35,404 nt of DNA from the NCBI GenBank assembly GCA_035574235.1, contig DATLZA010000153.1, positions 1 to 35,404 on the forward strand, in the 5' to 3' direction. The stretch is from Planctomycetota bacterium. Its GTDB lineage: Bacteria; Planctomycetota; MHYJ01; JACPRB01. Every line of letters starts with the position of its first letter. Position 1 is the first letter of the stretch. Shown here in pieces: positions 2,369 to 26,933 of the stretch. The notes under the pieces are model-generated. The model was not told the origin of the DNA, did no database searches, and saw nothing but the letters and a program-made list of their open reading frames with translations. Both the position numbers and the translations under genes were made by a program.

Positions 2369-3316
2369 TCAGAAGATCCCGCGCTCGGGGACCCAGACCA
2401 CGTCTCCAGGCTGAAGGTCCAGATCCAGCTCGAGCCGTCCGTTGAGGATCGCGTCCAGGTCCACGGCGTATTTCCGGGTTTCCCCCGTGGGCGTCGTCCG
2501 CAGCACCATGACGCGCGAGGTGGCGGCGAACTTCGTGTAGCTTCCGGCGTGGCTGACGGCCATGGAGACGGTCATCCGGGCGCCGTTGGGGACCTCGACC
2601 TGGCCGGGCTTGTTGACCTGGCCCAGGACGTACGCCACGCGCACGGCCGAAGGGATGACGACGAGATCGTCCGGCCAGAGCTCCAGGTCGGCCTCCGGGT
2701 GTCCCTGGGCGAGGAGGCGTTCCACCTGGACGAGGTTGACGTGAAGGACCTCGCGTTCGGCGGGGCCGCGGCGCCGGACGACCTGGACGTACTCCTTGTA
2801 GGCGCGGTCGGTGAGCCCTTCGGCGGCGGCGATGGCCTGAAGCAGCGTCAGCCGGGAGGTGGGGAAGACCTCGTAGCCGCCGGGCTTGGTGACGCCCCCC
2901 ATGACGTAAACCTTCCGGGGGGCGTACTCCTTGACGGTGACGGTGACGGACGGATCGTGCAGGAAGTCTTTTTCGAGGCGCTGCTTGAGGGTCTGCTCCA
3001 GCTGCGCGGTGGTTTTTCCGGCGGCCTGGACGGGGCCGATGAGGGGATAGGTGATCTTGCCCTCCTGAGGAATGCGGACTTCGAGCTGGAGGTCGGGCTG
3101 GCGGAAGACGCTGATGGCCAGGAGGTCGCCCGGGGCGAGGACGGGGTCCGGGGCGGGGGCGCTGCGCGGAACGGCGGCGGGGGGAGCGTCCGCCGCGGGG
3201 GCGGCGGCGAAGGGGGGAACCGGGGTCGGCGGAACGTCGGCGCGGCGCGTTTCCGTTTCGGCGCCGCAGGCGGACACCGCCAGGAGCGCCGCCGCGCAGG
3301 CGAAGTGCGTTTTCAT
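2369..3316 (-). CDS. Wza-type polysaccharide export lipoprotein (Poly_export plus SLBB domains)
   Basis: Periplasmic or outer-membrane component of capsule/exopolysaccharide export. The frame extends upstream, but the ATG at 3316 is chosen because it gives a lipoprotein signal (MKTHFACAAALLAVSACG; lipobox VSAC, Cys17) and lies 8 nt after a -10 box. Residues 18-55 are an Ala/Pro-rich linker. Residues about 58-140 match the Poly_export domain (LAPGDLLAISVFRQPDL at its start). Two SLBB beta-grasp units follow (VYVMGGVTKPGGYEV and AYVLGQVNKPGQVEV are their first strands). The protein has 315 residues, shorter than E. coli Wza (about 380), and ends directly after the last SLBB at VWVPERGIF, without the C-terminal helix that forms Wza's outer-membrane pore. 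It may therefore be an adaptor or need a separate pore. No Shine-Dalgarno is visible. Confidence 0.9.
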   Translation of the reverse strand: MKTHFACAAALLAVSACGAETETRRADVPPTPVPPFAAAPAADAPPAAVPRSAPAPDPVLAPGDLLAISVFRQPDLQLEVRIPQEGKITYPLIGPVQAAGKTTAQLEQTLKQRLEKDFLHDPSVTVTVKEYAPRKVYVMGGVTKPGGYEVFPTSRLTLLQAIAAAEGLTDRAYKEYVQVVRRRGPAEREVLHVNLVQVERLLAQGHPEADLELWPDDLVVIPSAVRVAYVLGQVNKPGQVEVPNGARMTVSMAVSHAGSYTKFAATSRVMVLRTTPTGETRKYAVDLDAILNGRLELDLDLQPGDVVWVPERGIF

Positions 3317-3324
3317 GGAAGGCC

Positions 3325-3354
3325 ATGCTACGGATCGGGCGCCGGGCGAGTCAA
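3325..3354 (-). promoter_or_regulatory. Promoter of the export lipoprotein gene
   Basis: On the minus strand TTGACT (3349-3354), an 18-bp spacer and TAGCAT (3325-3330). The -10 box ends 8 nt before the ATG at 3316, so the expected transcription start is at or next to the start codon (leaderless). Confidence 0.6.
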
Positions 3355-3356
3355 GG

Positions 3357-3396
3357 GGGCCGACCGGAACCGTTTGACACCGCGGCCGCGGGGCGG
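3357..3396. repeat. 40-bp direct repeat, left copy
   Basis: Identical over 40 bases to 3949-3988; the flanking bases differ (3356 G against T at 3948; 3397 C against T at 3989). It contains TTGACA (3374-3379) and the perfect 12-bp palindrome CCGCGGCCGCGG (3380-3391). Together with the right copy it brackets the toxin-antitoxin genes at a period of 592 bp. Confidence 0.9.
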
Positions 3397-3402
3397 CCCT
3401 TC

Positions 3403-3430
3403 TTGCAACGCCCTTCCTTCGGGATACAAT
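3403..3430 (+). promoter_or_regulatory. Promoter of the antitoxin-toxin operon
   Basis: TTGCAA (3403-3408), a 16-bp spacer and TACAAT (3425-3430). The -10 box ends 6 nt before the antitoxin ATG at 3437. No Shine-Dalgarno lies in that gap, so the transcript should be leaderless. Confidence 0.6.
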
Positions 3431-3436
3431 GAAGTC

Positions 3437-3664
3437 ATGGAAGGAGCGGAAAAGATCCTCAAGGAAGCGTCCGATCTGCCCGTCGAAGAACGGGCCTTCC
3501 TTGTGGACTCCCTTCTGCGAACGCTGAACCGTCCGGATCCGGGAATCGATCGGCAATGGATCGCCGTTGTCCGTCAACGCCTCGCCGATCTGCGGGGGGG
3601 AGGCGTTCGGGCGATTCCCGCCGAAGACGTGTTTGCACGTCTTCGGGACCGCTTCGGGAGATGA
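3437..3664 (+). CDS. Putative addiction-module antitoxin (PF09720-like)
   Basis: A 75-residue protein beginning MEGAEKILKEASDLPVEER. The N-terminal helix with 'LPVEERAFLVDSLL' is typical of the 'putative addiction module component' antitoxin family, which is usually 65-80 residues and paired with a ParE/RelE-type toxin. The C-terminal half (IPAEDVFARLRDRFGR) would be the toxin-binding tail. The start is the ATG at 3437, fixed by a promoter whose -10 box ends 6 nt upstream. Its TGA overlaps the toxin ATG (ATGA at 3661-3664), giving translational coupling. Antitoxins of this kind normally repress their own operon; the only obvious palindrome nearby is CCGCGGCCGCGG at 3380-3391, just upstream of the -35 box, a candidate operator by inference. 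Confidence 0.8.
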   Translation: MEGAEKILKEASDLPVEERAFLVDSLLRTLNRPDPGIDRQWIAVVRQRLADLRGGGVRAIPAEDVFARLRDRFGR

Positions 3665-3969
3665 CCCTCTCGTTTCATCCCGAGGCGGCCGCGGAGCTTG
3701 AAGCAGCGACCGCCGCCTACGAGGATCGCGAGCCGGGGCTGGGACTGGACTTTATCCTTGAAGTACAGGCGGCGATCGAACGCATCGTCTCCTTTCCCGA
3801 GGCTTGGCCCATCCTGGACGGAGAGGTCCGCCGCTGCCTGGTGCACCGCTTTCCTTTCGGGATTCTCTACGCCTGCGAGGCATCCGGGATTCGTATCCTG
3901 GCGGTCATGCATCTCCACCGGGAGCCGGAGTATTGGAAACACCGCCGTGGGCCGACCGGAACCGTTTGA
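3661..3969 (+). CDS. ParE/RelE-superfamily toxin
   Basis: A 102-residue protein, MTLSFHPEAAAELEAATAAY at its N-terminus. The order of beta-strand, paired helices ('EAAAELEAATAAYEDREPGL', 'FILEVQAAIERIVSFPEAWP') and strand-rich end ('RCLVHRFPFGILYA', 'IRILAVMHLHREPEYWKHR') is that of the ParE/RelE toxin superfamily. Such toxins poison gyrase (ParE) or cut mRNA on the ribosome (RelE); which applies here cannot be told. Family members usually end soon after 'HREPEYWKHR'. Here six further residues (GPTGTV) and the stop are encoded inside the right copy of the 40-bp repeat, so the repeat supplies the 3' end. It starts within the antitoxin stop codon. Confidence 0.8.
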   Translation: MTLSFHPEAAAELEAATAAYEDREPGLGLDFILEVQAAIERIVSFPEAWPILDGEVRRCLVHRFPFGILYACEASGIRILAVMHLHREPEYWKHRRGPTGTV

Positions 3970-3988
3970 CACCGCGGCCGCGGGGCGG
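3949..3988. repeat. 40-bp direct repeat, right copy
   Basis: Identical to 3357-3396. It contains the last toxin codons and the toxin stop (3967-3969), a TTGACA box (3966-3971) and the palindrome CCGCGGCCGCGG (3972-3983). Confidence 0.9.
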
Positions 3989-3995
3989 TTCCAAT
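3966..3995 (+). promoter_or_regulatory. Possible promoter of the PD40 gene
   Basis: A perfect TTGACA (3966-3971) lying in the 40-bp repeat, an 18-bp spacer and TCCAAT (3990-3995). The -35 box overlaps the toxin stop codon. A start near 4002 would leave a short leader containing the Shine-Dalgarno of the gene at 4023. Confidence 0.4.
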
Positions 3996-4022
3996 AGGAA
4001 AGGGCGGCGGAGGGAGATTCGC

Positions 4023-5402
4023 ATGAACATCCTGCCGGCGGCAATCGCGATCCTCGCCTTCCCTTCCGTTCAGGATCCGAAGATCTCCTTCGAAGAAAAG
4101 CTCCTGGCGACCATCCCGGACGACGTCCATGTCAGCCGCATCGTCTTCAGCCGGGACGGACGCCACGTGGCCTACCGCGGCATGCGCGGCGGCCGCTTCT
4201 TCGTGGCCGTCAACGGCCAGAAAGGCCCCGACTTCGCGGGCGTGAGCGAGGATTTTCTCCTCGCGCCCGACGGCCGGCCCGTCTACCGTGCCTTCAACGG
4301 CGCCGCCTGGGTGGTCCAGTTCGGCGCCCAGCAGGTGGGGCCCGCGCTGGCCGCCATCGGCAAGGCCGTCCTCAGCCCCGACGGCAAGAAGGTGGCCTTC
4401 GACGGCACCCGCGGGGGCTCGGGCGCCCAGGACAAGACCGCCTGGGCCATGTACGTGGGCGGCCAGAAGCTCGGGACCGACTACTTCGCCTGCGGTCCGC
4501 CCCACTTCAGCGCCGACGGATCGGTCGTCGCCCACTCGGTGCGCCTGGGCAAATCCGGCGACGCGAACCGGCCGTTCCATACCGTCCACGCCATGGTCGT
4601 GGGCGGCAAGGTCGGCCCCGAATGCGACGAGGTTTCCCATCCGTTCTTCGCCCCCAAGGGCAAGGCCATGGCCTACCGGGCGCGGCACGACGCCACCTGG
4701 ACGATGGTCGTGGACGGGAAGTCCCAAGGCTCGTATGCGGAGCTGGGCGACCCGGTCTGGAGCCCGGACGGCAAGAGCCTGGCCTACCGCGCGGGCGGGG
4801 GCGCGAAGTGGACGGTGGTCGTCAACGGCAAGCCGGGCGAAGAGTACGCGTCCGTGGGCGATCCGGTCTGGAGTCCGGACTCCAAGAAGGTCGCCTTCCG
4901 GGCCATGCGCGGACAGGACGGCTTCATCGTCGTGGGAGACAAGGCGCTCGATCCGGCTCCCTACTTGGGCGATCCGACCTTCGGGCCGGACGGAACCGTG
5001 GTGGCCTACCCGGCCCGCAACGGCCCGCGCTGGGGACTCGTGGTCGGCGATCGCCGCCTTCCGGCGGACTATGACGTCCTGGAAGATCCCGTCTTCAGCC
5101 CGGACGGCAAGCGCGTGGCCTACCGGGCCATGTGGAAGTACAAGTGGATCATTGCGGTGGACGACGGCAAGGGCGAGATCTTCGACGCGGTGGGGGTGCC
5201 CGTCTGGAGTCCGGATTCCGCGAAGGTCGCCTACGCCGCCCAGAAGGACGGCAAATGGTACCTTGTGGCGGCCTACCGGCGCCTGGAACCGTTGGACGAG
5301 ATTCTCACCCCTCCGGTCTGGTCGCCGGACGGCCGTAAGGTGGCCTTCGGGGCGCGCAAGGGGCAGGACCTCTTCTGGAAGGTGCTCCAGGTGCAGGACT
5401 AG
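4023..5402 (+). CDS. Secreted PD40/TolB-like beta-propeller protein
   Basis: A 459-residue protein. The ATG at 4023 is preceded by GGAGGGAG (4009-4016) and gives a short hydrophobic N-terminus (MNILPAAIAILAFPSVQ) that resembles a signal peptide. The rest is built of about eleven units of roughly 40 residues, each with a 'W/FSPDGKxVAYRA' strand pair (LSPDGKKVAF, WSPDGKSLAYRA, WSPDSKKVAFRA, FSPDGKRVAYRA, WSPDGRKVAFGA), usually preceded by 'xWxxVVxGK'. This is the WD40-like PD40 repeat of TolB-type propellers. Eleven units exceed one normal 6-8 bladed propeller, so it may form two. No catalytic domain is visible; a periplasmic or surface binding role is the most that can be inferred. It stands alone, 64 bases before the pseudopilin operon. 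Confidence 0.75.
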   Translation: MNILPAAIAILAFPSVQDPKISFEEKLLATIPDDVHVSRIVFSRDGRHVAYRGMRGGRFFVAVNGQKGPDFAGVSEDFLLAPDGRPVYRAFNGAAWVVQFGAQQVGPALAAIGKAVLSPDGKKVAFDGTRGGSGAQDKTAWAMYVGGQKLGTDYFACGPPHFSADGSVVAHSVRLGKSGDANRPFHTVHAMVVGGKVGPECDEVSHPFFAPKGKAMAYRARHDATWTMVVDGKSQGSYAELGDPVWSPDGKSLAYRAGGGAKWTVVVNGKPGEEYASVGDPVWSPDSKKVAFRAMRGQDGFIVVGDKALDPAPYLGDPTFGPDGTVVAYPARNGPRWGLVVGDRRLPADYDVLEDPVFSPDGKRVAYRAMWKYKWIIAVDDGKGEIFDAVGVPVWSPDSAKVAYAAQKDGKWYLVAAYRRLEPLDEILTPPVWSPDGRKVAFGARKGQDLFWKVLQVQD

Positions 5403-5450
5403 AAAGGTCCGCGCCGCGCAATTCCCGGGGGAATAAAGGCTCCCGGTTTG

Positions 5451-5456
5451 TATTCT
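5451..5456 (+). promoter_or_regulatory. Possible -10 box of the pseudopilin operon
   Basis: TATTCT, with TTTAAT overlapping at 5456-5461; no convincing -35 box. An in-frame TAG (5461-5463) lies one codon before the ATG at 5467, so no longer start is possible, and the gap of about 10 nt holds only AGAGG touching the ATG. This fits a leaderless start. A short inverted repeat (ATTCCC/GGGAAT, 5421-5434) lies upstream. Confidence 0.35.
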
Positions 5457-5466
5457 TTAATAGAGG

Positions 5467-8400
5467 ATGGGTACCGGCGGGAGCACGGCTGGACGCGAAC
5501 GGGGTCTGGCCCTCGTTCTGGTCCTGACGGTCCTCTTGGCGCTCGCCCTGGTGGCGACCCCCTTCGTCCTGTCGATGCTCCTTCACGAGCAGAGCGGGGC
5601 GGCGTCGCGCTTCTTCTCCCAGGCCGACTACGGCGCGGAGGGGGCCCGCAACTACGCCGTCTGGCGGCTCATGGCGAGCCTCGATCCCGTCGAACGGCGC
5701 GCCGGGGCCGGAGCCGTCAACACCTATCACTTCGATCCCGCCCAGGAGTTCGACATCCGGCTGACGGACGCCTATCTCCGGCGCCTGGGGATCTCCGATC
5801 CGCGCGGGGCCATCTGGGGCCTGACCGTTCAGGACGAGCAGGGCAAGCTCAACGTCCGGAGCGTTCCGGAGCGGGCGCTGGTGACCCTGGCGCAGGCGGT
5901 GACCGGCCGGGCGATCTCGAGCCCCCTTCAGTTCGAAACCGCGAGTCTGGCGGCGCCGAAGGATTATCTCACGCAATACTCCGGCCGGGATTCGGCCTGG
6001 ATCTGCCCGCAGCGGATCCGCGAAGCCGGCGGTCCGGGAACTTCGGGCGCCTTCACGGTGGACAACCTTATGGTGCTGGGCCCGCGCGCGCGGATCCGCG
6101 CTTCGAAGCCGGGGCTGCGCCCGTTCGAGGGCCGGATCGCTTCCAACGCGATCCTCGGCAACGCCCCGGCGCCCGCCGGATTCACCACGGACCCGGCCCT
6201 TCCGCCCGGTTACGCCGACGGCGTGATCGAAGTCGAGATGCGCCACCCGGTCAATCTGAACACGGCGCGGCGGGAGACCCTGCTGGCGGTCTTCGAGGGG
6301 CTGGAGATTCACAACGTTCCTCAGAGCCGCGTGGACCGCGCCTCGGCGGCGCTCCTGGCCAACGCCTTCGTGGATCAGCGGATCGAGCGGCTCGATCAGT
6401 TCCTCCTGAAGCTTTCGGGCCTCGGGGGGCTGCGGCCCGAGCAGCGCCTGGCCGTGGCGATCAACGCGGTCTGTCCCACGGCGGCGCTCCTGGCGGGCTC
6501 CGGGACCGCGCCGTTCTGCTTCCGGTCGTACGACGTGTACACGGTGGAGGCCTTCGCCGCGGTGAACACGCCCGCGGGAACCGCGGCGGGATGGCGCGGG
6601 TTCCGCGAGGTGGCCAGCGTGTCCGCTCCTTCGCTCCTCACGCGGACGGTCGAGAGCGAGTATGACTTCGATCAGATGCTCAACCAGGGGGCGGACCTGG
6701 CGACGTACTTCCCCCGCGCGCGCGTCCTGGGAGGGTATCCCTTCGGCAGCCGGATGGTGACCTTCCCGCGGATCCCCGGCCCGGCCGGCGGGGAGCCCGG
6801 TCAGCTTTACGGTCCGAGCGACCTGGCGCTCAAGGCCCAGCAGCGGCCCGGTCCCGGCGGGAACGAAGCGTACGTGACGCTGGTGACGTCGCGGGACGAA
6901 CGGGGCCGCTCCGAGTGGGAAGCCGCGCTTCAGGGCTGGCCGAATCCCCACGCGCGGGACCATTTCGACGCCGCGATCGAGGGACGCCGGCTTCAGGGAA
7001 CGGCGCTGACCTATCCCTGGGGTCAGGTGTTCGTCACCCAGCCGCCCGCCACCGGCGGGGGCGGAGGGACAGGTCCGGAAGCATTCTTGTCGCCGGCGGG
7101 AATGCTTCCGGATGTCGCCGCCGGGGGCTTCGAGCTCTGGGTCCGCTTCGACGGTCCGCCCCCCAACCCCGTCACGATCTTCGATCTGCGCGAACAGGAC
7201 TTCACCAATCGGATGACGCTCCGGGTCGAGAACAACGAGATCATCTTCACCGTCTGCGACAGCACGATCGGCGCGGCCGACCATCCGATCGACAACGGCG
7301 CCGCCGAAGTGCGCCAGCCCTTCACCCCCGAACGGGACACCTGGTACCACCTGGCCGCGTACTGGGAGGGCACCCGGTACGCGGAGCTGGCGCTTCTCGT
7401 GGACGGCTTCGCGCACCCGCAGCAGAAGTTCTCGCACGTCAATCCCGAGGGGCAGACCGTCCTCACCCGCCTCACGGGGGCGATGACGGATACCTCCACC
7501 TCGATCGGCCTTCAGGACGACAGCTTCCTGCCGCAGAACGTCACGGCTTTCGTGGGCACCGCCGGGGACAGCCCGACCGTGACGCCGCTTCTGGTGGGCG
7601 ACGAGGTGATGATCTACGACCGCCCGGCCGGGACCCTCGTGCGCGGGGCGCGGGGGACGCGCCCGCAGCCGCATCCGGCCGGGGCGGCCGTCCAGATCTT
7701 CGGCTACTCCAGCCGCCTGCGGCGGGGAACCGTCCGGGTGGACGAGAATCCGCCGCGGTACCCGCCCTGCACGTACGACCGGCTGACGGCCGGAGGGGGC
7801 GCCGTCGCCTACGGGTTCGGCCCCGATCCCACCGCGACCGTCGCCGGAGACAAACAGGACGCCATGACCGGCGGCTGGTACGTGGACGCCTCGCAGTCGG
7901 ACATCGGCGTCAACAGTCCGGACATCATGGCCTTCCCCGACCAGGGCTACATCTTCATCGAAAACGAGGTGATTTTTTACACGGGCCGGGACGCGTCGTC
8001 GCCGGGCGGAGACCCTTCGGCCAACGCGCGGTTCACGGGCTGCGTCCGCGCCCAGCACGGCACCACCGGCGCGCGGCACGATTCGGGACGGCCCGTCCGC
8101 ATCTACGCCGTGCCGGTCACGGCGCTCGACGGATATCTTTCGCCCACGATCATCCAGGTGGGGGACGAGTGGTTCGGACCCGTCCAGCGCGATCCGGTGG
8201 GGCGTCCCTTCTGGACGTCGTTCGTGGTCAACGACAACGGGACGATGACGCCGCTGCCCCTGCGGCGCGGTCCGGCGGTCTTCGGCACGCCTCTGCAGGC
8301 CCACAGTCCCGGCGACCCCGTCCTGCCGACCTTTCTGGTGAGCGACACGAGCCTGTCGCCCACGCGATACAACCTGGGGCGCTACGATCGCGTGACGCTC

Positions 8401-9648
8401 GTGGATTCCTCCAACTACCGGGAGATGCACCGCGTGCGGCAGGCGGGGCCCCCGGTCGTCTGGTCGAACGCCACGGGGAGCTGGCAGCAGCAGATCTGGA
8501 CGGGGATGTCCATCCAGGTTTCCGGCGGAGCGGGCCAGATCGCCGCCCTGGAAAATCCGGTGGGGCGCGAATTTCCGGCCGACGAGCTTTACACGCGCGT
8601 CCTGAAGTTTCCGTCCGGCGAACTTCTGGGCCTTCAGTGGATTCAGGCGGTCAATCCCTCCTTCACGGTCGGTCCTCTGGGGGAAGCCACGGTGGACGAG
8701 GTGAAAGCTTTCGCGTCGCCGAAGCGGGCGCTGCGGCTGGCGGCGGAGGCGTCGACCGACGCGGCGCAGCTGACGCTCGGCGGGCCTCCGATCGCCGAAC
8801 GGGGCGGGCTTCTCAAGATCGGCGACGAATACGTCGGATACATGCGCGCCCAGGCCGGAGCGGTCACGCCGCTTCGACGCGGATGGCTGGGGTCGAACGC
8901 CCAGGTGCACGACGCCGGGGATTCCGTGATGGACCTGTACTTCATCCCCGTCTACGCGCTCCAGGGGGAGGTCGGGGCCACGGATCGGCGGATCCCGGTT
9001 CATCCGCGGCGGGGGGGCGGCGCCCTGCGGGATCTGCCGCCGCGGGGGTACGTGCTTCTCGATCAGGAAGTCGTCGGCTACGAATGGATCCAGGGCCAGG
9101 AGCTCGTGATGCCGCCCCGATGGGACGGCGTGACCGGACTCTACCGGGGGATGTTCGGAACCGCTCCGGCGTCCCATTCGGCGTCCTCGAGCCTGGCCTA
9201 TGCGATTCCCTTCCGCTACTTCGACGGCTACAAGCCGCGCGAGTTCGACAACACGATGCCGTACTTCCAGTGGTCCACGCGGATGGACCTGGCGCGGTGG
9301 AGCAGTCTCTGGTGGGACCAGGAAGTGCCGCTCAACGACCCGAACGTCGTCGTCCACGCGCTCGTGCGGATCGACGCTCGCGGCGAATTCTGGGACAGCC
9401 CGGGGCTTTCGGACCGGACGCTGCTTCTGGATTTCACGGCCCCGCGGACGAAAAATCCGATCAACCGCGTGGGCTATCTCGAGGAGGCGGGGCAGTTCGA
9501 CGTGAGGTTCCACGTGGAGTATCGTCCCGGGTCGTTCGACGCGACGCAGCCCTGGAACGCCCATTCCTGGAAGCGGGCGCCCAAGATCAAGGAGATCCGG
9601 GTGGACTATGACCGCCCGACGCAGACGCTTCACCGCGAAGACCGGTAA
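5467..9648 (+). CDS. gspK: Giant GspK-like type II secretion minor pseudopilin with LamG-like and repeat region
   Basis: N-terminal prepilin leader ending ERG13, then a hydrophobic helix (LALVLVLTVLLALALVATPF, 14-38), as in GspK. Residues about 40-390 follow the GspK pattern, including the helix-hairpin-helix entry 'HPVNLNTARRETLLAVFEGL' (about 258-277). GspK is usually 300-350 residues; this one has 1393. The added part holds a LamG/concanavalin-like domain (about 550-655: GGFELWVRFDG, WYHLAAYWEG, LALLVDG). Five degenerate copies of a motif follow, 'vGDExxxY ... LxRGxxGT ... HxxG' (about 707-750, 827-882, 895-958, 1115-1165, 1194-1252). Classical GspK caps the pseudopilus tip, so the extension would project from the tip (inference). 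It overlaps the next gene by 41 bases. gspD, E, F and G are not in the window. Confidence 0.8.
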   Translation: MGTGGSTAGRERGLALVLVLTVLLALALVATPFVLSMLLHEQSGAASRFFSQADYGAEGARNYAVWRLMASLDPVERRAGAGAVNTYHFDPAQEFDIRLTDAYLRRLGISDPRGAIWGLTVQDEQGKLNVRSVPERALVTLAQAVTGRAISSPLQFETASLAAPKDYLTQYSGRDSAWICPQRIREAGGPGTSGAFTVDNLMVLGPRARIRASKPGLRPFEGRIASNAILGNAPAPAGFTTDPALPPGYADGVIEVEMRHPVNLNTARRETLLAVFEGLEIHNVPQSRVDRASAALLANAFVDQRIERLDQFLLKLSGLGGLRPEQRLAVAINAVCPTAALLAGSGTAPFCFRSYDVYTVEAFAAVNTPAGTAAGWRGFREVASVSAPSLLTRTVESEYDFDQMLNQGADLATYFPRARVLGGYPFGSRMVTFPRIPGPAGGEPGQLYGPSDLALKAQQRPGPGGNEAYVTLVTSRDERGRSEWEAALQGWPNPHARDHFDAAIEGRRLQGTALTYPWGQVFVTQPPATGGGGGTGPEAFLSPAGMLPDVAAGGFELWVRFDGPPPNPVTIFDLREQDFTNRMTLRVENNEIIFTVCDSTIGAADHPIDNGAAEVRQPFTPERDTWYHLAAYWEGTRYAELALLVDGFAHPQQKFSHVNPEGQTVLTRLTGAMTDTSTSIGLQDDSFLPQNVTAFVGTAGDSPTVTPLLVGDEVMIYDRPAGTLVRGARGTRPQPHPAGAAVQIFGYSSRLRRGTVRVDENPPRYPPCTYDRLTAGGGAVAYGFGPDPTATVAGDKQDAMTGGWYVDASQSDIGVNSPDIMAFPDQGYIFIENEVIFYTGRDASSPGGDPSANARFTGCVRAQHGTTGARHDSGRPVRIYAVPVTALDGYLSPTIIQVGDEWFGPVQRDPVGRPFWTSFVVNDNGTMTPLPLRRGPAVFGTPLQAHSPGDPVLPTFLVSDTSLSPTRYNLGRYDRVTLVDSSNYREMHRVRQAGPPVVWSNATGSWQQQIWTGMSIQVSGGAGQIAALENPVGREFPADELYTRVLKFPSGELLGLQWIQAVNPSFTVGPLGEATVDEVKAFASPKRALRLAAEASTDAAQLTLGGPPIAERGGLLKIGDEYVGYMRAQAGAVTPLRRGWLGSNAQVHDAGDSVMDLYFIPVYALQGEVGATDRRIPVHPRRGGGALRDLPPRGYVLLDQEVVGYEWIQGQELVMPPRWDGVTGLYRGMFGTAPASHSASSSLAYAIPFRYFDGYKPREFDNTMPYFQWSTRMDLARWSSLWWDQEVPLNDPNVVVHALVRIDARGEFWDSPGLSDRTLLLDFTAPRTKNPINRVGYLEEAGQFDVRFHVEYRPGSFDATQPWNAHSWKRAPKIKEIRVDYDRPTQTLHREDR

Positions 9649-10714
9649 CGACCTCCGGGGGGGCATGACGCTCGTCGAGCTCCTGGTGGCGTTCGTCATC
9701 CTCCTGATGATCATCGGGGCGCTCGTGTCCCTGACGACGCGGAGCCTGGAGAGCTGGACGGAGGGGGAAACCCGGAAGGAACGATACGACCGGGCGCGGA
9801 CGGTCCTGGACGCGCTCGTGTCCGACCTGCGCAACCTCTACGTGGAAAACGAGATCTTTCTGGACGGCCAGAAGGTGCTCCTGCCGCCGATTCTCGCGTG
9901 CGACCTGGATCGGAACCGCGCGCCGCGGCTGCGGTTCGTCCGCTCGGGGCACCCGTCGGTGGTGAAGGTCCCGGGGGGGACGGGTGCCCCGGCTCGGCTC
10001 CTGCCGCCGATGTACTACGGAGCCACGTGGGAAATCGCCTACGTCCCCGATCCCGAGCCGGAGCGGGCCGTCCTCTGGCGGGCCGTGCGCCCCTTCGACC
10101 GCCAGCCGACGGCGGCGAGCCTGCTGCGCCCGCCGCCGCACTACAACCGCGCGTCGGACGGTTTCGGTTCGCGCTTCGTGCCGGTCGAGTCCGGAGTGCT
10201 CTGGGTCGGCTACCGCTTCTGGACGCAGTTCACGACGACGTGGGACGACGCCCATCCGGTGCGCCGCGTGGGGCCGCGCTCGCGGCAGCCTTCCGGGCCC
10301 GAGCGGCGGTGGGACTCCTGGCGCCGGGACGACAAGGAGTTCTTCTTCCACCGCCGGGCCTTCGATCCGACCAATCCGGACTTCGTCTACCCGGAGATCG
10401 TGGCGATCTCGGTCACGGTCGAAGGAGCGGGGCCGGAGACGCACGGGGTGAGGCTTCTGGAATCCTGCGACGAGCGCTCGAGCGTTCTGCGGCTGACGCA
10501 CACGCAGGGACTGCCGGATCCGCCGTCCTTCGTGAAGATCGGGGCCGAGTGGATCGAGTACGCGGGGAAGACCTCGACGGAGCTGACGGGGCTGCGGCGG
10601 GGGCGCCGGGACACCGCGGCCGCGCCGCATCCGGCCGGGGCGGCCGTGCGGTTCGGAGAGACGTTCACCACGGAGGTGCGCCTGCCGGTCTATCGGGAGG
10701 CGCAGGAGCCATGA
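9608..10714 (+). CDS. gspJ: GspJ-like minor pseudopilin with the shared repeat motif
   Basis: A 368-residue type II pseudopilin. The prepilin peptidase site is clear: LRGG19 followed by MTLVELLVAFVILLMIIGAL, with Glu at mature position 5. A long helix (SWTEGETRKERYDRARTVLD) comes next, then a beta-rich domain. GspJ is usually near 200 residues; the excess includes one copy of the motif seen five times in the preceding protein (about 308-352: VKIGAEWIEY, LTGLRRGRRDTAAAPHPAGA). The ATG at 9608 keeps the full leader; it lies inside the end of the K gene, suggesting translational coupling. The stop overlaps the next start (ATGA at 10711-10714). Assignment as J rather than H or I rests on position and length. 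Confidence 0.75.
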   Translation: MTARRRRFTAKTGNDLRGGMTLVELLVAFVILLMIIGALVSLTTRSLESWTEGETRKERYDRARTVLDALVSDLRNLYVENEIFLDGQKVLLPPILACDLDRNRAPRLRFVRSGHPSVVKVPGGTGAPARLLPPMYYGATWEIAYVPDPEPERAVLWRAVRPFDRQPTAASLLRPPPHYNRASDGFGSRFVPVESGVLWVGYRFWTQFTTTWDDAHPVRRVGPRSRQPSGPERRWDSWRRDDKEFFFHRRAFDPTNPDFVYPEIVAISVTVEGAGPETHGVRLLESCDERSSVLRLTHTQGLPDPPSFVKIGAEWIEYAGKTSTELTGLRRGRRDTAAAPHPAGAAVRFGETFTTEVRLPVYREAQEP

Positions 10715-16533: not shown

Positions 16534-17283
16534 ATGGCTTCGCGCAAGATCGACGCTCTGATTCCGCTCCAGGAGCTGGATCTCCAGATCCATCGTCTCA
16601 GGGTCCAGCGCGCCGAAAAGCCCCGCCCGCTCGCCGCCTCGGAAGAAAAGCTCGCCCACGCCCGCCGGAATCTCGAGGCGCTGCAGGCCGAAATCAAGGC
16701 CCTGAAGCTCGAAGGTCAGAAGCGCGAGCACGCCGTCAAGGAGTACGACGAGAAGATCGCCAAGCTCCAGGCCCAGGCCCTCCAGGCGCGCAAGAACGAC
16801 GAATATCAGGCCTTCCAGAAGGAAATCTCCGGCGTCAAGGCCGACAAGGGACGCGTGGAGGACGGCCTGCTGGACATCTACATGCAGATCGACGAGAAGG
16901 CCAAGCTCGAGAAGGTCCGGCAGGAGGAGCTGCGCCAGGCCGAGTCCGAGCACGCCGCCGCCCGCAAGAAGGTCGAGGGGGAGATCGAGGAGCTCGACCG
17001 CCAGATCGAGGAGCTGCTCTCGCGCCGGCAGGGGGTGACCTCCGCCGTGGAGAAGGACGTGCTGCGGCTCTACGAGCGGATTCTCGAAGCCAAGGAGGAC
17101 GGGACGGCGCTGGCGGCGGTCGGGAAGTACGAGGTCGTGGAGGAGGAGGGGAAGGTCACCTACTGGCAGTGCGAGGGGTGCGGCGTGGGCCTCAACATGC
17201 AGGACGTCAACCTTCTCATGATCGGCAAGGATCTTCAGACCTGCCGCAACTGCTCCCGGATTCTCTTCCTCAAGCCCCAGTAG
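16534..17283 (+). CDS. Coiled-coil protein with C4 zinc ribbon (PF02591-like)
   Basis: A 249-residue cytoplasmic protein. Residues about 10-185 are almost unbroken charged heptads (LEALQAEIKALKLEGQKREH, EGEIEELDRQIEELLSRRQG), so two antiparallel long helices are likely. The C-terminus carries CEGCGVGLN and CRNCSRIL, a four-cysteine zinc ribbon. This is the layout of the widespread 'C4-type zinc ribbon domain' family, with a conserved 'ARKNDEYQAFQKEI' stretch. Chlamydial CdsZ belongs to this family and acts on the type III secretion ATPase; other members have no settled role. It has its own promoter. Its last 14 bases overlap the end of the convergent STAS-FHA gene. Confidence 0.8.
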   Translation: MASRKIDALIPLQELDLQIHRLRVQRAEKPRPLAASEEKLAHARRNLEALQAEIKALKLEGQKREHAVKEYDEKIAKLQAQALQARKNDEYQAFQKEISGVKADKGRVEDGLLDIYMQIDEKAKLEKVRQEELRQAESEHAAARKKVEGEIEELDRQIEELLSRRQGVTSAVEKDVLRLYERILEAKEDGTALAAVGKYEVVEEEGKVTYWQCEGCGVGLNMQDVNLLMIGKDLQTCRNCSRILFLKPQ

Positions 17284-17959
17284 CCCCCGGTCGGCATCCC
17301 GCCGGATAGAAGGCCAGCCTCACGTCGGCCACGCGGAAGACGTCCCGCGCGCGCAGCGGCTCGTCCGTCACGCGGCGATTCCCGATCCAGGTTCCGAAAC
17401 GGGTGCCCAGGTCCTTGAGGAAACAGGCGTCCCCGTTGCGGTACACCTCGGCGTGACGCGGATCCGCCTCGGGGTGCCGCACCACGATCGTGCAGCGGGG
17501 ATCGCTGCCCACCCGGAGGGACGTTCCGACGATGGGGAATTCGACGCCCTCCTCGGGCCCGTCGAGGGGCACCACCCGCGGCGACCGCTCCAGCCGCCCC
17601 GCCTGCGTGCGCAGGTAGGCGCGGGCGGCTTCCGCGCCGGCCTCGAAGCGGAAGTAGCTCTGCATGCCGAGATTGTTGAAGATCACCTTGACCTTGGGCT
17701 GGACGTCCACGAGCACCAGCGCCCCGCCGCGGCGCTCGAGGGTCGCCGCCAGGTCCATGAGATAGCCGAAGCCGGCGCTCGTCACGTAGGAGACGTTTCC
17801 CATGTGGATCGAGACGAACGTGGTGCGGGCGTCCAGAACGCGGTCCAGCCGCTCCTTGAGGAGCGCGGCGTTGGAGGCGTGGACGCCGCCCTCGACGAGG
17901 ATTTCCAGCGAGCGCGGCAGGTCCAGGATGGGCGAGGCGCGAAGGACGAGCTCGGGCAT
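17270..17959 (-). CDS. STAS domain-FHA domain protein
   Basis: A 229-residue cytoplasmic regulator. Residues 1-110 form a STAS (anti-sigma-factor antagonist) domain; SYVTSAGFGYLMDLAATL keeps Ser at the usual phosphorylation position, and LVLVDVQPKVKVIFNNLGMQ is the following strand-helix. Residues about 140-215 have an FHA fold (LRVGSDPRCTIVV, PRHAEVY, LKDLGTRFGTWIGN), but the phosphothreonine pocket looks altered: GR reads GS, the Ser of SRxHA is Asp, and the Asn of STNGT is Phe. STAS proteins are usually switched by an anti-sigma kinase; none is in the window, although two Ser/Thr kinases are. A TAGAAT -10 box ends 6 nt before the ATG. It overlaps the convergent zinc-ribbon gene by 14 bases. 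Confidence 0.85.
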   Translation of the reverse strand: MPELVLRASPILDLPRSLEILVEGGVHASNAALLKERLDRVLDARTTFVSIHMGNVSYVTSAGFGYLMDLAATLERRGGALVLVDVQPKVKVIFNNLGMQSYFRFEAGAEAARAYLRTQAGRLERSPRVVPLDGPEEGVEFPIVGTSLRVGSDPRCTIVVRHPEADPRHAEVYRNGDACFLKDLGTRFGTWIGNRRVTDEPLRARDVFRVADVRLAFYPAGCRPGATGA

Positions 17960-23180: not shown

Positions 23181-23288
23181 TCCTGATGGCCCAGGCGTCT
23201 CCGGGGGGGTAGGGCCCGCCGGCGCGGCATTTCCATCCGGACCGCGGTTCGTCGCCGACCGTCGCCTGCGGCCCGGTTGGAGCCGGAC

Positions 23289-26200
23289 GTGACGGAACTT
23301 CAAGGATCGGGAGATGTCGGCCGCCAGCTGCTCCTGGGCAAGAAGCTCCTGGAGCGCGGGTTTCTCACCCCCGATCAGCTCCGCGAAGCCCTGACCGAAC
23401 GCGCGCAGAGCCTTTCCCAGGGAAATCCCCGGCCGCTGGCGGCGATCCTTCTTCAAAAGGGATTCGTCACCGAAAGCCAGCTCCGGATCGCCCTGGACGA
23501 GACGTCCGGGCAGGCTTCCTCCCCCCGCGCTTCCTCCGCGTCCGCCGCCTCCGCGCCTCTTCTGGCCCCCGCTCCGACGGCCTCCGCTCCGGAACGGCTG
23601 GGGAAATACGAGCTCCTGCGCGAACTGGGCCGCGGCGGCATGGGCGTCGTCTACGAGGCGCGCGACGCGGACCTCGGCCGCAAGGTCGCCCTCAAGCTCA
23701 TGATCACGCCGGCCGGGGCCGATCCCAAGGAAGTCGCCCACGACGAGGAGCGCTTCGTTCAGGAAGCCCAGCTGACCGCCAAGCTCAAGCACCCCAACAT
23801 CGTCACCGTCTACGAGGCGGGGATCCTGGACGGCCGCCGCTTCATCGCCATGGAGCTCGTGGAGGGGTTGCCCTTCTCCCAATGGCGCAAACAGAGCGGT
23901 GCGTCCCTCAAGCAGCAGGTGGCGGTTCTGCGCGACGTGGCGCTGGCCGTCCATCACGCGCACGAGCAGGGGGTCCTCCATCGGGATCTCAAGCCGCGCA
24001 ACGTTCTCGTTTCCCCGGACGGGCATGCGTACGTCACCGACTTCGGACTGGCCAAGCCGCTGGGGACGAAGGTTCACGCCTCCCTCACCGGCTCCGGGGC
24101 GGTCGTCGGCACGCCCGCCTACATGAGCCCCGAGCAGGCTCAGAGCGGCCACCGGGTCGATTGGCGGACCGACATCTGGTCCCTCGGGGTCATGCTGTAC
24201 GAGATCCTGACGGACCGGACGCCGTTCACCGGGGAGTCGCCCCTCGAAATTCTGATGAAGGTGGTCAAGGACGACGTCGTTCCGCCCAGCCGGGCGGCCA
24301 CGGGCGCCGCGGCGCGCGAGATCGACAAGGCGATCGAGAACGTCTGCCTGAAGGCCCTGGCCAAGCGGGACCGGGACCGCTACCCGACCGCGCGGGCGTT
24401 CGCGGAAGATCTCACCCGGTGGCTTTCCGGCCAGGAAGTCCGCACCGTGGCGCCCCGGCCCGTCCGGAAGCCCTCCTACGTGCGGGCGGCCGTTCTGGGG
24501 GCGGCGATCGGCGTCGCCGGCGTCGGAGGGCTCATGCTGGCCGTCTCCGTGCGCCGCCCGTCGGTGACCGCGGAGCTCGCGGAGGCTCACCGGCACATGG
24601 ACGAGGAAAACTACACGGAGGCGCTGATCGCCTTCACCCGCGCGCTGGCCAAGGATCCGGAGAACGCCGGGGCGATCGAGGGGGAGCGCCGCGCCCGCGA
24701 GGCGCTCCGCCGGAAGTCCCTCGAGCGGGAACAGCAACTCCGGGCCGCGCTGGAGGCCGCCCGGGGGGACGCCGAACGCGCCCGGCGCGAGGCGGAAGAG
24801 AAGGCCCGCGCGGAGGAGCGGGCGCTTTCTCCCGAGGAGCGCGAAGCCCTGGCCGCCCAGCGTGCCGCCGCCGAGGAGCGCGCCCGCCGCGCCGAGGAGG
24901 AGGCGCGCCGGGCGGACGAGCAGCTGCGCCTCACCCGGGGCGTCCCCGCGGCGCGGCCGTCTCCCGGAACGGGCCCGGCGGACGACGCATGGAAGGACGC
25001 CGTCAACCTCCTGGGCGTCGTGGAGCTTCCCCGGAACGTCGTTTCCGGCACCTGGACCTGGAGGGAAGGGGCCCTCGCGTCCGGACGGGAACCCTTCGCG
25101 CGCGTGGAAATCCCGTACGTGCCTCCTGAGGAGTACGACCTGCGGGTCGTGTTCCGCCGGAAAACCGGGACGGACGCCGTGGCGCTCATTCTCGGCGCGC
25201 GGGGCGGCGCGCCGATCGTCTGGGCGCTCGGGGCCGCCGGGAATACCTCACTGGCGCTTCGCCCGCCGCCCGTCGAAGGGCCTCCTCCGGTCGGTCCGCC
25301 GGTCCTGGAGAACGACCGGCCGTACACCGCCGTGATCCAGGTGCGGCGGCAGCGCGTCCGGGCGCTTCTCGAAGGACGCCTCGTGGAGGAGCGCGAGGGA
25401 AGCTTGGAGGAACCGGCGTCGGATCCTTCCTGGAGGCTCGGGGGGGACGCGGTCCTGGGGCTCGGAAGCCATGAAAGCCCGGCCGTCTTCCAGCGGGTGG
25501 ATCTTCTGGAGGTCACGGGACGCGGGCGCCGCGCCGTTTCGGCGCCGATGCCGGTCTTCGTTCCGCCCTCCCGTTCCGGGGCGCCCCTTCGGCCGGGCCT
25601 GGTCGGCGAGTACTACTACGGGGCCAACTTCGAGGCGCTCGCCCTGCGCCGCGTGGATCCGGTGGTGAGCTTCGAATGGGGCGAGGGCCCGCCGTGGACG
25701 GGCGGTCCGAAGGACGCCTTCTCGGCTCGCTGGCGCGGGTACCTCCACGCCCCGCGTCCCGGCCGTTACACCTTCTCGGTGGAGGCCGACGACGGAGTGC
25801 GCGTCCGCCTCGACGGCCGGCAGATCCTGTCGAGCTGGGGGCTTCACGCGGAGCCGCCCAAGCCCGTGGCGTGCGTGCTCGAGGAGGGCTACCACCGCCT
25901 GGAGGTGGACTACTACGACCGCGCGTACCGGGCGTCGATCACCCTCCAGTGGGCGGAGGGATCGGGCGGTGCGGCCGCTCCCATCGGCGCGCGTTCGCTG
26001 TTCCACGACCCTTCCGAGTTTCAGCCCCTGCCCGTCCAGCGCGTGACGGAACTCATCGCCGTCCTGGCGGGGCACTCGAACGTCGTCACGGGCGTCGCCT
26101 TCGCTCCGGACGCGAGCTTCGCGGCGACGTCGGGCGAGGACCGCCGGGTGCGGATCTGGGATCCCGTGACGCGCCGCGAGGCGTCCTCGCTGGGCGCGAC

Positions 26201-26933
26201 GCCCTCGGGGCTTCTGGCGGTGGCGGTTTCGCCGGACGGCCGTTACGTCGCCGCGGCGGGGGCCGACGGGCGCGTGCGGGTGTGGGAGGGCGGCCGGGGG
26301 CCCGAGATCCGCGTGCTGGAGGGCCATGCGGGGCACGCGTCGTCGCTGGCGTTCCACCCTTCGGGGCGCCTGCTGGCCTCGGGCGGATACGACCGGAAGA
26401 TCCGGCTCTGGGAGGTGGACGGCTGGAAGCTGCGGCGCGAGCTGGAGGGCCACGGCGGCTCCGTGGACGGCCTGGCCTTCTCGCCGGACGGAACGATGCT
26501 GGCTTCGGGCGGCGCGGACCGGCGCGTGCGCGTCTGGGACGTGGAGTCCGGCCGGGAGCGGAAGGTCCTGGACGGGCACGCGGACGGGGTGACGGCCTGC
26601 GCGTTCAGCCCGGACGGGACGCTCATCGCGTCGGCGGGGCGCGACACGCTGGTGAAGCTGTGGGATCCGGAGACGGGACGCGAGCTGCGCCGTCTGCGGG
26701 GCCACACGGGGGAGGCGCTTTGCCTGGCCTTCAGCCCGGACGGGAGGCTTCTGGCCTCGGGCGGAGCGGACGCCATGGTGCGGCTGTGGGATCCCGCCAC
26801 GGGGAAGGAAGTCCGAATCCTTCCGGGACACGGGGACCGCGTGACCGGCGTGGCGTTTTCGCGCGTCGGGGCGCTCCTGGCCTCCGTCGGTTCGGACACG
26901 TCGGTCCGGCTCTGGGACGTGAAGTCCTGGTAG
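23289..26933 (+). CDS. Ser/Thr protein kinase with TPR, coiled coil, PA14 and seven WD40 repeats outside the membrane
   Basis: About 1214 residues. GTG 23289 is chosen because GGAG (23279-23282) lies 6 nt upstream; TTG 23277 is the longest alternative. Order: GspE-N-like domain (about 10-75: LLLGKKLLERGFLTPDQLRE, LLQKGFVTESQLRIAL); Ala/Ser linker; kinase (about 103-370) with GRGGMGVVY, VALK, HRDLKPRN, DFGLAK and YMSPEQ; transmembrane helix (about 397-421). Beyond the membrane come a TPR-like unit, a Glu/Arg/Ala coiled coil (about 470-552), a LamG/DUF1080-like beta domain (about 565-750), a PA14 domain (about 767-907: LVGEYYYGANF, YTFSVEADDGVRVRLDG) and seven WD40 blades (about 920-1214: LAFSPDGRLLASGGADAMVR). 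PA14 commonly binds glycans, so an envelope-sugar sensor is plausible (inference). A PilZ-HEAT gene follows after 14 bases. Confidence 0.92.
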   Translation: MTELQGSGDVGRQLLLGKKLLERGFLTPDQLREALTERAQSLSQGNPRPLAAILLQKGFVTESQLRIALDETSGQASSPRASSASAASAPLLAPAPTASAPERLGKYELLRELGRGGMGVVYEARDADLGRKVALKLMITPAGADPKEVAHDEERFVQEAQLTAKLKHPNIVTVYEAGILDGRRFIAMELVEGLPFSQWRKQSGASLKQQVAVLRDVALAVHHAHEQGVLHRDLKPRNVLVSPDGHAYVTDFGLAKPLGTKVHASLTGSGAVVGTPAYMSPEQAQSGHRVDWRTDIWSLGVMLYEILTDRTPFTGESPLEILMKVVKDDVVPPSRAATGAAAREIDKAIENVCLKALAKRDRDRYPTARAFAEDLTRWLSGQEVRTVAPRPVRKPSYVRAAVLGAAIGVAGVGGLMLAVSVRRPSVTAELAEAHRHMDEENYTEALIAFTRALAKDPENAGAIEGERRAREALRRKSLEREQQLRAALEAARGDAERARREAEEKARAEERALSPEEREALAAQRAAAEERARRAEEEARRADEQLRLTRGVPAARPSPGTGPADDAWKDAVNLLGVVELPRNVVSGTWTWREGALASGREPFARVEIPYVPPEEYDLRVVFRRKTGTDAVALILGARGGAPIVWALGAAGNTSLALRPPPVEGPPPVGPPVLENDRPYTAVIQVRRQRVRALLEGRLVEEREGSLEEPASDPSWRLGGDAVLGLGSHESPAVFQRVDLLEVTGRGRRAVSAPMPVFVPPSRSGAPLRPGLVGEYYYGANFEALALRRVDPVVSFEWGEGPPWTGGPKDAFSARWRGYLHAPRPGRYTFSVEADDGVRVRLDGRQILSSWGLHAEPPKPVACVLEEGYHRLEVDYYDRAYRASITLQWAEGSGGAAAPIGARSLFHDPSEFQPLPVQRVTELIAVLAGHSNVVTGVAFAPDASFAATSGEDRRVRIWDPVTRREASSLGATPSGLLAVAVSPDGRYVAAAGADGRVRVWEGGRGPEIRVLEGHAGHASSLAFHPSGRLLASGGYDRKIRLWEVDGWKLRRELEGHGGSVDGLAFSPDGTMLASGGADRRVRVWDVESGRERKVLDGHADGVTACAFSPDGTLIASAGRDTLVKLWDPETGRELRRLRGHTGEALCLAFSPDGRLLASGGADAMVRLWDPATGKEVRILPGHGDRVTGVAFSRVGALLASVGSDTSVRLWDVKSW

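Follow-up and report, generated by a model that had tools for sequence, protein, structure and literature searches.

The giant GspK-type minor pilin K, encoded in the 35,404-nucleotide window of Planctomycetota DNA analysed here, belongs to a cassette for a type IV filament (the pilins G, H, K, J and I with PilM and a TPR protein) that is distinct from the ordinary type II secretion system (T2SS). Beyond its GspK core, K carries a LamG-like domain and five copies of a module of about 65 residues, of which a sixth copy lies in the adjacent pilin J, and the same module is found in phage tail proteins. The best reading of K, J and I is that they are a variant of the modular tip pilins, with a head that is in part lectin-like and in part phage-tip-like. 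The coordinates of the features are collected in Table 1.

Architecture of K, J and I

The N-terminus of K, RERG-LALVLVLTVLLALALVATPF, consists of a class III signal peptide and a helix that lacks Glu at position 5, as in GspK. This RERG-LALVL start is kept in relatives, and tip K subunits are described as lacking Glu5 (PMC9934059). The GspK core proposed in the sequence-only reading is matched in part by NCBIfam T2SS_GspK, at residues 11–137 (E 2.1e-5; 24.2 bits, far under the cut-off of 130), a model that is matched by 12 of 13 K relatives (best 8.4e-15), while Pfam T2SSK is matched by 4 of the 13. The core can also be aligned with the ordinary GspK that this genome encodes elsewhere (hhalign 3.3e-6, 126 columns), and the match to GspK in the PDB is weak (E 0.53). 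With 1393 residues against 437 in this paralogue, K is about 3.2 times as long; the earlier estimate was about four times the normal length. Unlike a GspK of normal size, K has an extra head with the LamG domain and five modules. A long antisense open reading frame at 5305–9834 was read as a by-product of the high G+C content and set aside.

The presence of a LamG-like domain, also part of the sequence-only reading, agrees with a match of Pfam Laminin_G_3 to residues 553–659 (E 8.9e-5, slightly under cut-off). A profile of the LamG domain in the H pilins aligns to K 553–654, and again to K 1072–1091 where the closing VDEV strand is located; the second match (E 0.0086) is weak alone. On the basis of these two matches, the simplest reading of the LamG in K is a single domain, split by a stretch of about 400 residues with modules 1–3 in it, and modules 4 and 5 and the C-terminal domain would then sit behind it. 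A single continuous head of repeats does not agree with this layout, where modules 1–3 appear to interrupt the LamG and modules 4 and 5 follow it. The LamG of K is degenerate. The pattern LKFPSGEL is conserved and was used to search for K relatives, and at the end of K, Trp1368 and Lys1369 are invariant in 13 relatives.

In the predicted model of the K head (residues 492–1393; pLDDT 88.3, pTM 0.87), a similar run of short strands is present in each copy of the module. Comparison of the whole head with solved structures returned LamG-type matches only, with large rmsd, and comparison with viral models returned long multi-domain matches with low TM. We take these whole-head matches as support for the LamG and for a mixture of domains like that in phages, and not as a fold assignment.

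The K and J genes overlap by 41 bases, and the ATG start of I overlaps the stop of J (ATGA). The starts of J and I are of the ordinary pilin type, MTL/FTLxE. The model of J (pLDDT 87.8, pTM 0.84) has the GspJ fold, with XcpW as the best Foldseek matches, and the module, modelled at pLDDT 96–98, is predicted to be an insertion between the last two long GspJ strands, around P-EIV.I.V and GETF.TEVRLP. The module is kept in this fixed place, about 22 residues before the C-terminus, in 44 of 45 J relatives.

Table 1. Features of the K, J and I genes in the window
Feature	Position	Strand	Evidence
Giant GspK-type minor pilin K, 1393 aa	5467..9648	+	ORF; T2SS_GspK 2.1e-5; full-length Planctomycetota relatives
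K residues 1–425: class III signal peptide, transmembrane helix without Glu5, GspK core with HPVNLNTA	5467..6741	+	T2SS_GspK, T2SSK, hhalign
LamG, first part, K 553–654	7123..7428	+	Laminin_G_3 8.9e-5; hhalign to H-pilin LamG 2.7e-5
Module copy 1, K 667–741	7465..7689	+	J-only profile 2.8e-5; iterated 5.1e-11
Module copy 2, K 806–876	7882..8094	+	J-only profile 0.015; iterated 1.8e-13
Module copy 3, K 882–951, weakest copy	8110..8319	+	Iterated 2.9e-6; groups with J module in tree
LamG, last strands (LKFPSGEL ... VDEVKAF), K 1044–1084	8596..8718	+	hhalign to H-pilin LamG 0.0086; LKFPSGEL conserved
Module copy 4, K 1090–1152	8734..8922	+	J-only profile 2.3e-6; iterated 3e-10
Module copy 5, K 1164–1241	8956..9189	+	J-only profile 0.025; iterated 3e-16
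C-terminal beta-rich domain of K	9199..9645	+	Conserved end; strands in predicted model
GspJ-type minor pilin J, 368 aa	9608..10714	+	N_methyl 2.0e-4; fold matches XcpW/GspJ, Foldseek 3.0e-5, prob 1.00
J module, J 282–346, 22 residues before C-terminus	10451..10645	+	Iterated profile 2.1e-16; model; 44/45 J relatives
GspI-type minor pilin I, 151 aa	10711..11166	+	N_methyl 3.6e-6; sequence and junction

The module in K and J and its phage tail relatives

Five copies in K and a sixth in J had been counted in the sequence-only reading, and a profile built solely from the modules of J relatives finds four of the five in K. Copy 3 is missed by this J-only profile and is found with an iterated profile, for which K had supplied part of the training set and which is thus partly circular; counterparts of copy 3 in K relatives form a recognisable set in the module tree described below. 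Applied to 54 K proteins longer than 1100 residues, the J-only profile gave 147 matches at E <0.01, and zero in reversed and shuffled K proteins. The profiles of the J module and the K module align with an E value of 2.6e-21 (hhalign), and the models of J and the K head do not show the copies as unrelated folds. Homology of the copies in K and J is thereby supported, and the sharing of the module between the two proteins is old and conserved over the phylum. The string GDExxxY...RGxxGT...HxxG, by which the module was first described, is matched in full by some copies and not by others; the family consensus is looser, with near-invariant E, R, G, H and G residues.

In a search of the complete 4.06-Mb genome, K and J alone are matched by the K-module profile, and in 30 genomes (the source genome and relatives) nearly all matches fall in K or J frames. 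The exceptions are one frame of 8478 residues and a few other frames that the profile matches. The 8478-residue open frame, in a relative (L134 1–18001, G006:C88), contains at least three copies.

A tree was calculated from 189 modules labelled as J or as copies 1–5. Within the limits set by few columns and long branches, the modules sort by position, with 14 label changes compared with 121.8 when the labels are shuffled, and the module positions are therefore old sets common to the phylum. The J module falls together with K copy 3 in a group with a support of 95, and these two have E-W, whereas a different residue follows E in the remaining copies. As to the history of the module, the sequences favour duplication and exchange within the operon rather than several captures from phages. 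An independent acquisition of the J module from phages was considered and dropped, as the tree groups J with K copy 3.

The resemblance to phage tail proteins that the sequence-only reading had noted is borne out by profile searches. K is matched by the family phrog_1101 ('tail protein') at 1.4e-12, and J at 2.3e-6; of 26 J modules, the family matches 19, with a best value of 2.3e-8. Next come phrog_4406, phrog_2885 and tail fibre families. Among solved structures, the J-module profile places 8vjh, a minor tail protein of phage Chi, first (0.0026, in two places), and 8rk3, the tip protein gp53 of phage JBD30, fourth (residues 493–559, 0.027); taken singly, the phage structure matches are weak (E 0.0026 to 0.027). 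The two entries between them are haemagglutinin constructs and likely due to chance, being aligned only over 'p....yVr.dgEW', a stretch that we take to be a T4 foldon tag. With the K-module profile, nothing useful was found in the PDB, and tblastn of K and of one J module against phage genomes gave weak cyanophage matches only. In Pfam searches with single copies, only Rcc01698_C was matched, under cut-off, and the same domain matches a relative at 2.8e-5. The phage copies that were matched largely keep the E, R, G, H and G residues of the module. The identification of 8VJH as phage Chi follows PMC11945409.

For the JBD30 hub, PMC11445458 describes domain VI as a small six-stranded barrel that extends from a fibronectin-like domain, touches another domain, and stabilises the baseplate. 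This barrel may correspond to residues 493–559 of 8rk3. The module strands in the J and K models are compatible with a small six-stranded barrel, with weak Foldseek matches to F1-ATPase subunits (E 0.44).

A filament cassette separate from the ordinary T2SS

In relatives, the giant K is part of a G-H-K-J-I cassette, present in about 35 loci and composed of a G-like pilin of ~205 residues, an H-like pilin of ~330 residues with an inserted LamG domain (1.6e-10 to 5.3e-9), K, J and I. In 26 loci a PilM relative lies close to K, and 13 have a large TPR protein there; among these loci, some are duplicates of one place. H pilins with an inserted LamG occur phylum-wide (L057 6661–7641 and about 35 other loci), and H, K and J are therefore all decorated subunits.

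In the window, K, J and I are present without G and H. G and H, the latter with its LamG, are located on another contig, C76 (L124 9890–11505), together with PilM (1.5e-18), a TPR protein and a protein in the position of PilO, which means that the cassette is split in the source genome. Beside the split pilin operon on C76 (L128 1–20000, L124), genes that resemble glycosyltransferases, asparagine synthase and sugar epimerases were recognised by eye, suggesting a surface polysaccharide locus. Downstream of K-J-I are KsgA and DnaG, an arrangement common to about ten relatives. A PD40 beta-propeller repeat protein (3804–5402) is encoded directly upstream of K, and was not found near K in relatives. 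The window further contains a 371-residue frame (2549–3664), the end of which matches Unstab_antitox (1.2e-12), an addiction-module component; a 1218-residue frame (23277–26933) that combines a protein kinase domain with a PA14 domain and WD40 repeats; and, on the minus strand, a small protein (17270–17959) with a STAS domain joined to an FHA domain.

An ordinary T2SS cluster with E, F, G, H, I, J and K is present on contig C128 of the source genome, where K has 437 residues (T2SSK 3.8e-13) and J 216 (T2SSJ 2.1e-8). A D-E-F-G-H-I-J set lies on contig C130, and no K was seen there. Near the giant K in the relatives checked, there was no secretin/GspD- or GspF-type gene, and a single GspE-type match (L078). 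The sequence-only reading had placed K and J at the tip of a T2SS pseudopilus. Because an ordinary T2SS with a normal K and J exists elsewhere, and the giant K is associated with PilM, the TPR protein and G and H pilins of its own, the giant K is not simply a T2SS tip, and the T2SS label is probably wrong.

Relatives of K are present in 198 of 292 Planctomycetota genomes at E 1e-3; with the limit set at E 1e-20, a hand count of the table gives about 155. The giant K is found in about half of the genomes sampled. Among 48 public loci with K relatives, nearly all are assigned to Planctomycetota or planctomycetes, and the rest to 'bacterium' without a phylum.

Proposed tip complex and alternative readings

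Modular type IV pilins have been defined (PMC8179133), with LamG (PF13385) among their common architectures (PMC8179133, PMC9934059). As in PilB and PilC of Streptococcus sanguinis, whose module a complex of minor pilins displays at the filament tip (PMC8179133, PMC9934059), K combines a stalk with extra modules, but several differences are noted. The carrier is of GspK type and has a core domain of its own; the head consists of a LamG that is apparently split by three modules, with two more behind; the module recurs in the partner J; and a second LamG is present in H. The most extreme modular pilin named there has 860 residues (PMC8179133, PMC9934059), compared with 1393 in K and up to 2184 in the longest frames of its relatives. 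With GspI-GspJ-GspK (XcpV-XcpW-XcpX), the proteins share the subunit types, their adjacency, a K without Glu5 and the predicted J fold. Standard GspJ and GspK, however, have neither LamG nor module, and the cassette of the giant K lacks T2SS machinery genes and exists beside an ordinary T2SS. The module of about 65 residues (E...RG..T...H..G) is common to K, J and the phage tail-tip proteins (JBD30 gp53 8rk3, Chi 8vjh, the Rcc01698 C-terminal domain and phrog_1101); it is this small domain that is shared, and not the phage hub as a whole. There is also a pilin-type likeness to the Verru_Chthon cassette, where J matches protein C (TIGR02599) at 1.7e-7 (30.8 bits, cut-off 256.5) and protein A (TIGR02600) is matched at 0.0034 by two of the 13 K proteins, all of these matches being far under the cut-offs. 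In the open-licence papers searched, no description of these tip subunits was found.

To these observed parts, homologous, conserved, and nearly exclusive to K and J as the module is, we would add a tip position, a bracing role and ligand binding. We lean, if only slightly, towards a model where K-J-I forms the tip of a filament, K is a modular pilin, the modules brace a platform made of K and J, and the LamG face binds a glycan or a surface. K-J-I is seen as a trio that primes and caps the filament because of the analogy with GspI-J-K and with S. sanguinis PilA-B-C (PMC8179133, PMC9934059). Prepilin peptidase would trim K, J and I, and, as in the GspI-J-K complex, the three would join via their N-terminal helices and prime the filament, with K capping the tip. 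On the GspK core, the LamG would carry three modules in a loop and two more behind, and J would add one at its fixed site. By analogy with the small barrel in the phage hub, the modules would most likely build and brace the tip platform by packing K against J. The LamG face of K may be turned outward and bind a glycan or surface; in PilC of S. sanguinis, a ConA-like lectin on a tip pilin has been shown by test to bind glycans (PMC9934059). H could, via its own LamG, offer a second lectin-like face beside K.

The modules may instead be mere spacers that lengthen or stiffen K and J, without binding and without mutual contact, a possibility that we consider unlikely but not negligible. It would agree with the small JBD30 barrel, which PMC11445458 presents as stabilising and not as receptor binding, and with the E, R, G, H and G residues, which are largely kept in the phage copies and therefore resemble the signature of a fold more than a dedicated active site. 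The single J module, however, keeps its site in 44 of 45 relatives and is closest to K copy 3, and this fixed site and kinship favour a specific contact. That the head was captured recently as a phage tail fragment, or created by a chance fusion in the assembly, is in our judgement exceedingly improbable, even though the module is a phage tail domain. The same architecture, with full-length relatives, recurs across the phylum in a number of genomes well above one hundred, which disposes of the artificial fusion allowed for in the sequence-only reading; the base composition of the K region is like that of its surroundings, no phage genes were seen beside K, and the module tree makes the module positions older than the families compared. 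Both variants were rejected on account of the relatives and the tree.

Two further readings concern the system that K would serve. A tip of a real T2SS pseudopilus, with a head that recognises secreted proteins, is improbable: the names of K, J and I come from T2SS families or folds, and since no K was seen with the C130 set, the giant K could work there, but the genome has its separate ordinary cluster, and the companions of the giant K are PilM, the TPR protein and a G and an H of its own. Quite improbable, too, is a role in the export or assembly of surface polysaccharide, suggested by the name of the cyanobacterial Hps pseudopilins. J matches HpsC (NF038304) at E 6.6e-4, and G, H and PilM share C76 with the sugar-related genes noted above; yet the HpsC match is under cut-off and confined to the N-terminal helix region, the sugar-gene neighbourhood was seen in one genome only, and the cassette adjoins KsgA and DnaG in several relatives.

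Returning to the preferred tip complex, a rather unlikely but attractive extension is that a Planctomycetota filament with a miniature-baseplate tip, formed by LamG and hub modules distributed over three subunits, captures large molecules such as polysaccharides, which would then be taken up into the enlarged periplasm. In two cultured planctomycetes, pili-like fibres have been observed with gold-labelled dextran on them (PMC5394234); the cassette is known here from other genomes. At the level of the proteins, a phage tail-tip domain has been used and multiplied in predicted filament tip subunits, phylum-wide and in two partner proteins at once, which extends the idea of the modular pilin to a GspK-type tip complex with several subunits decorated together. 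The complex is also a concrete, testable candidate for the means by which planctomycetes attach to surfaces or retain large molecules.
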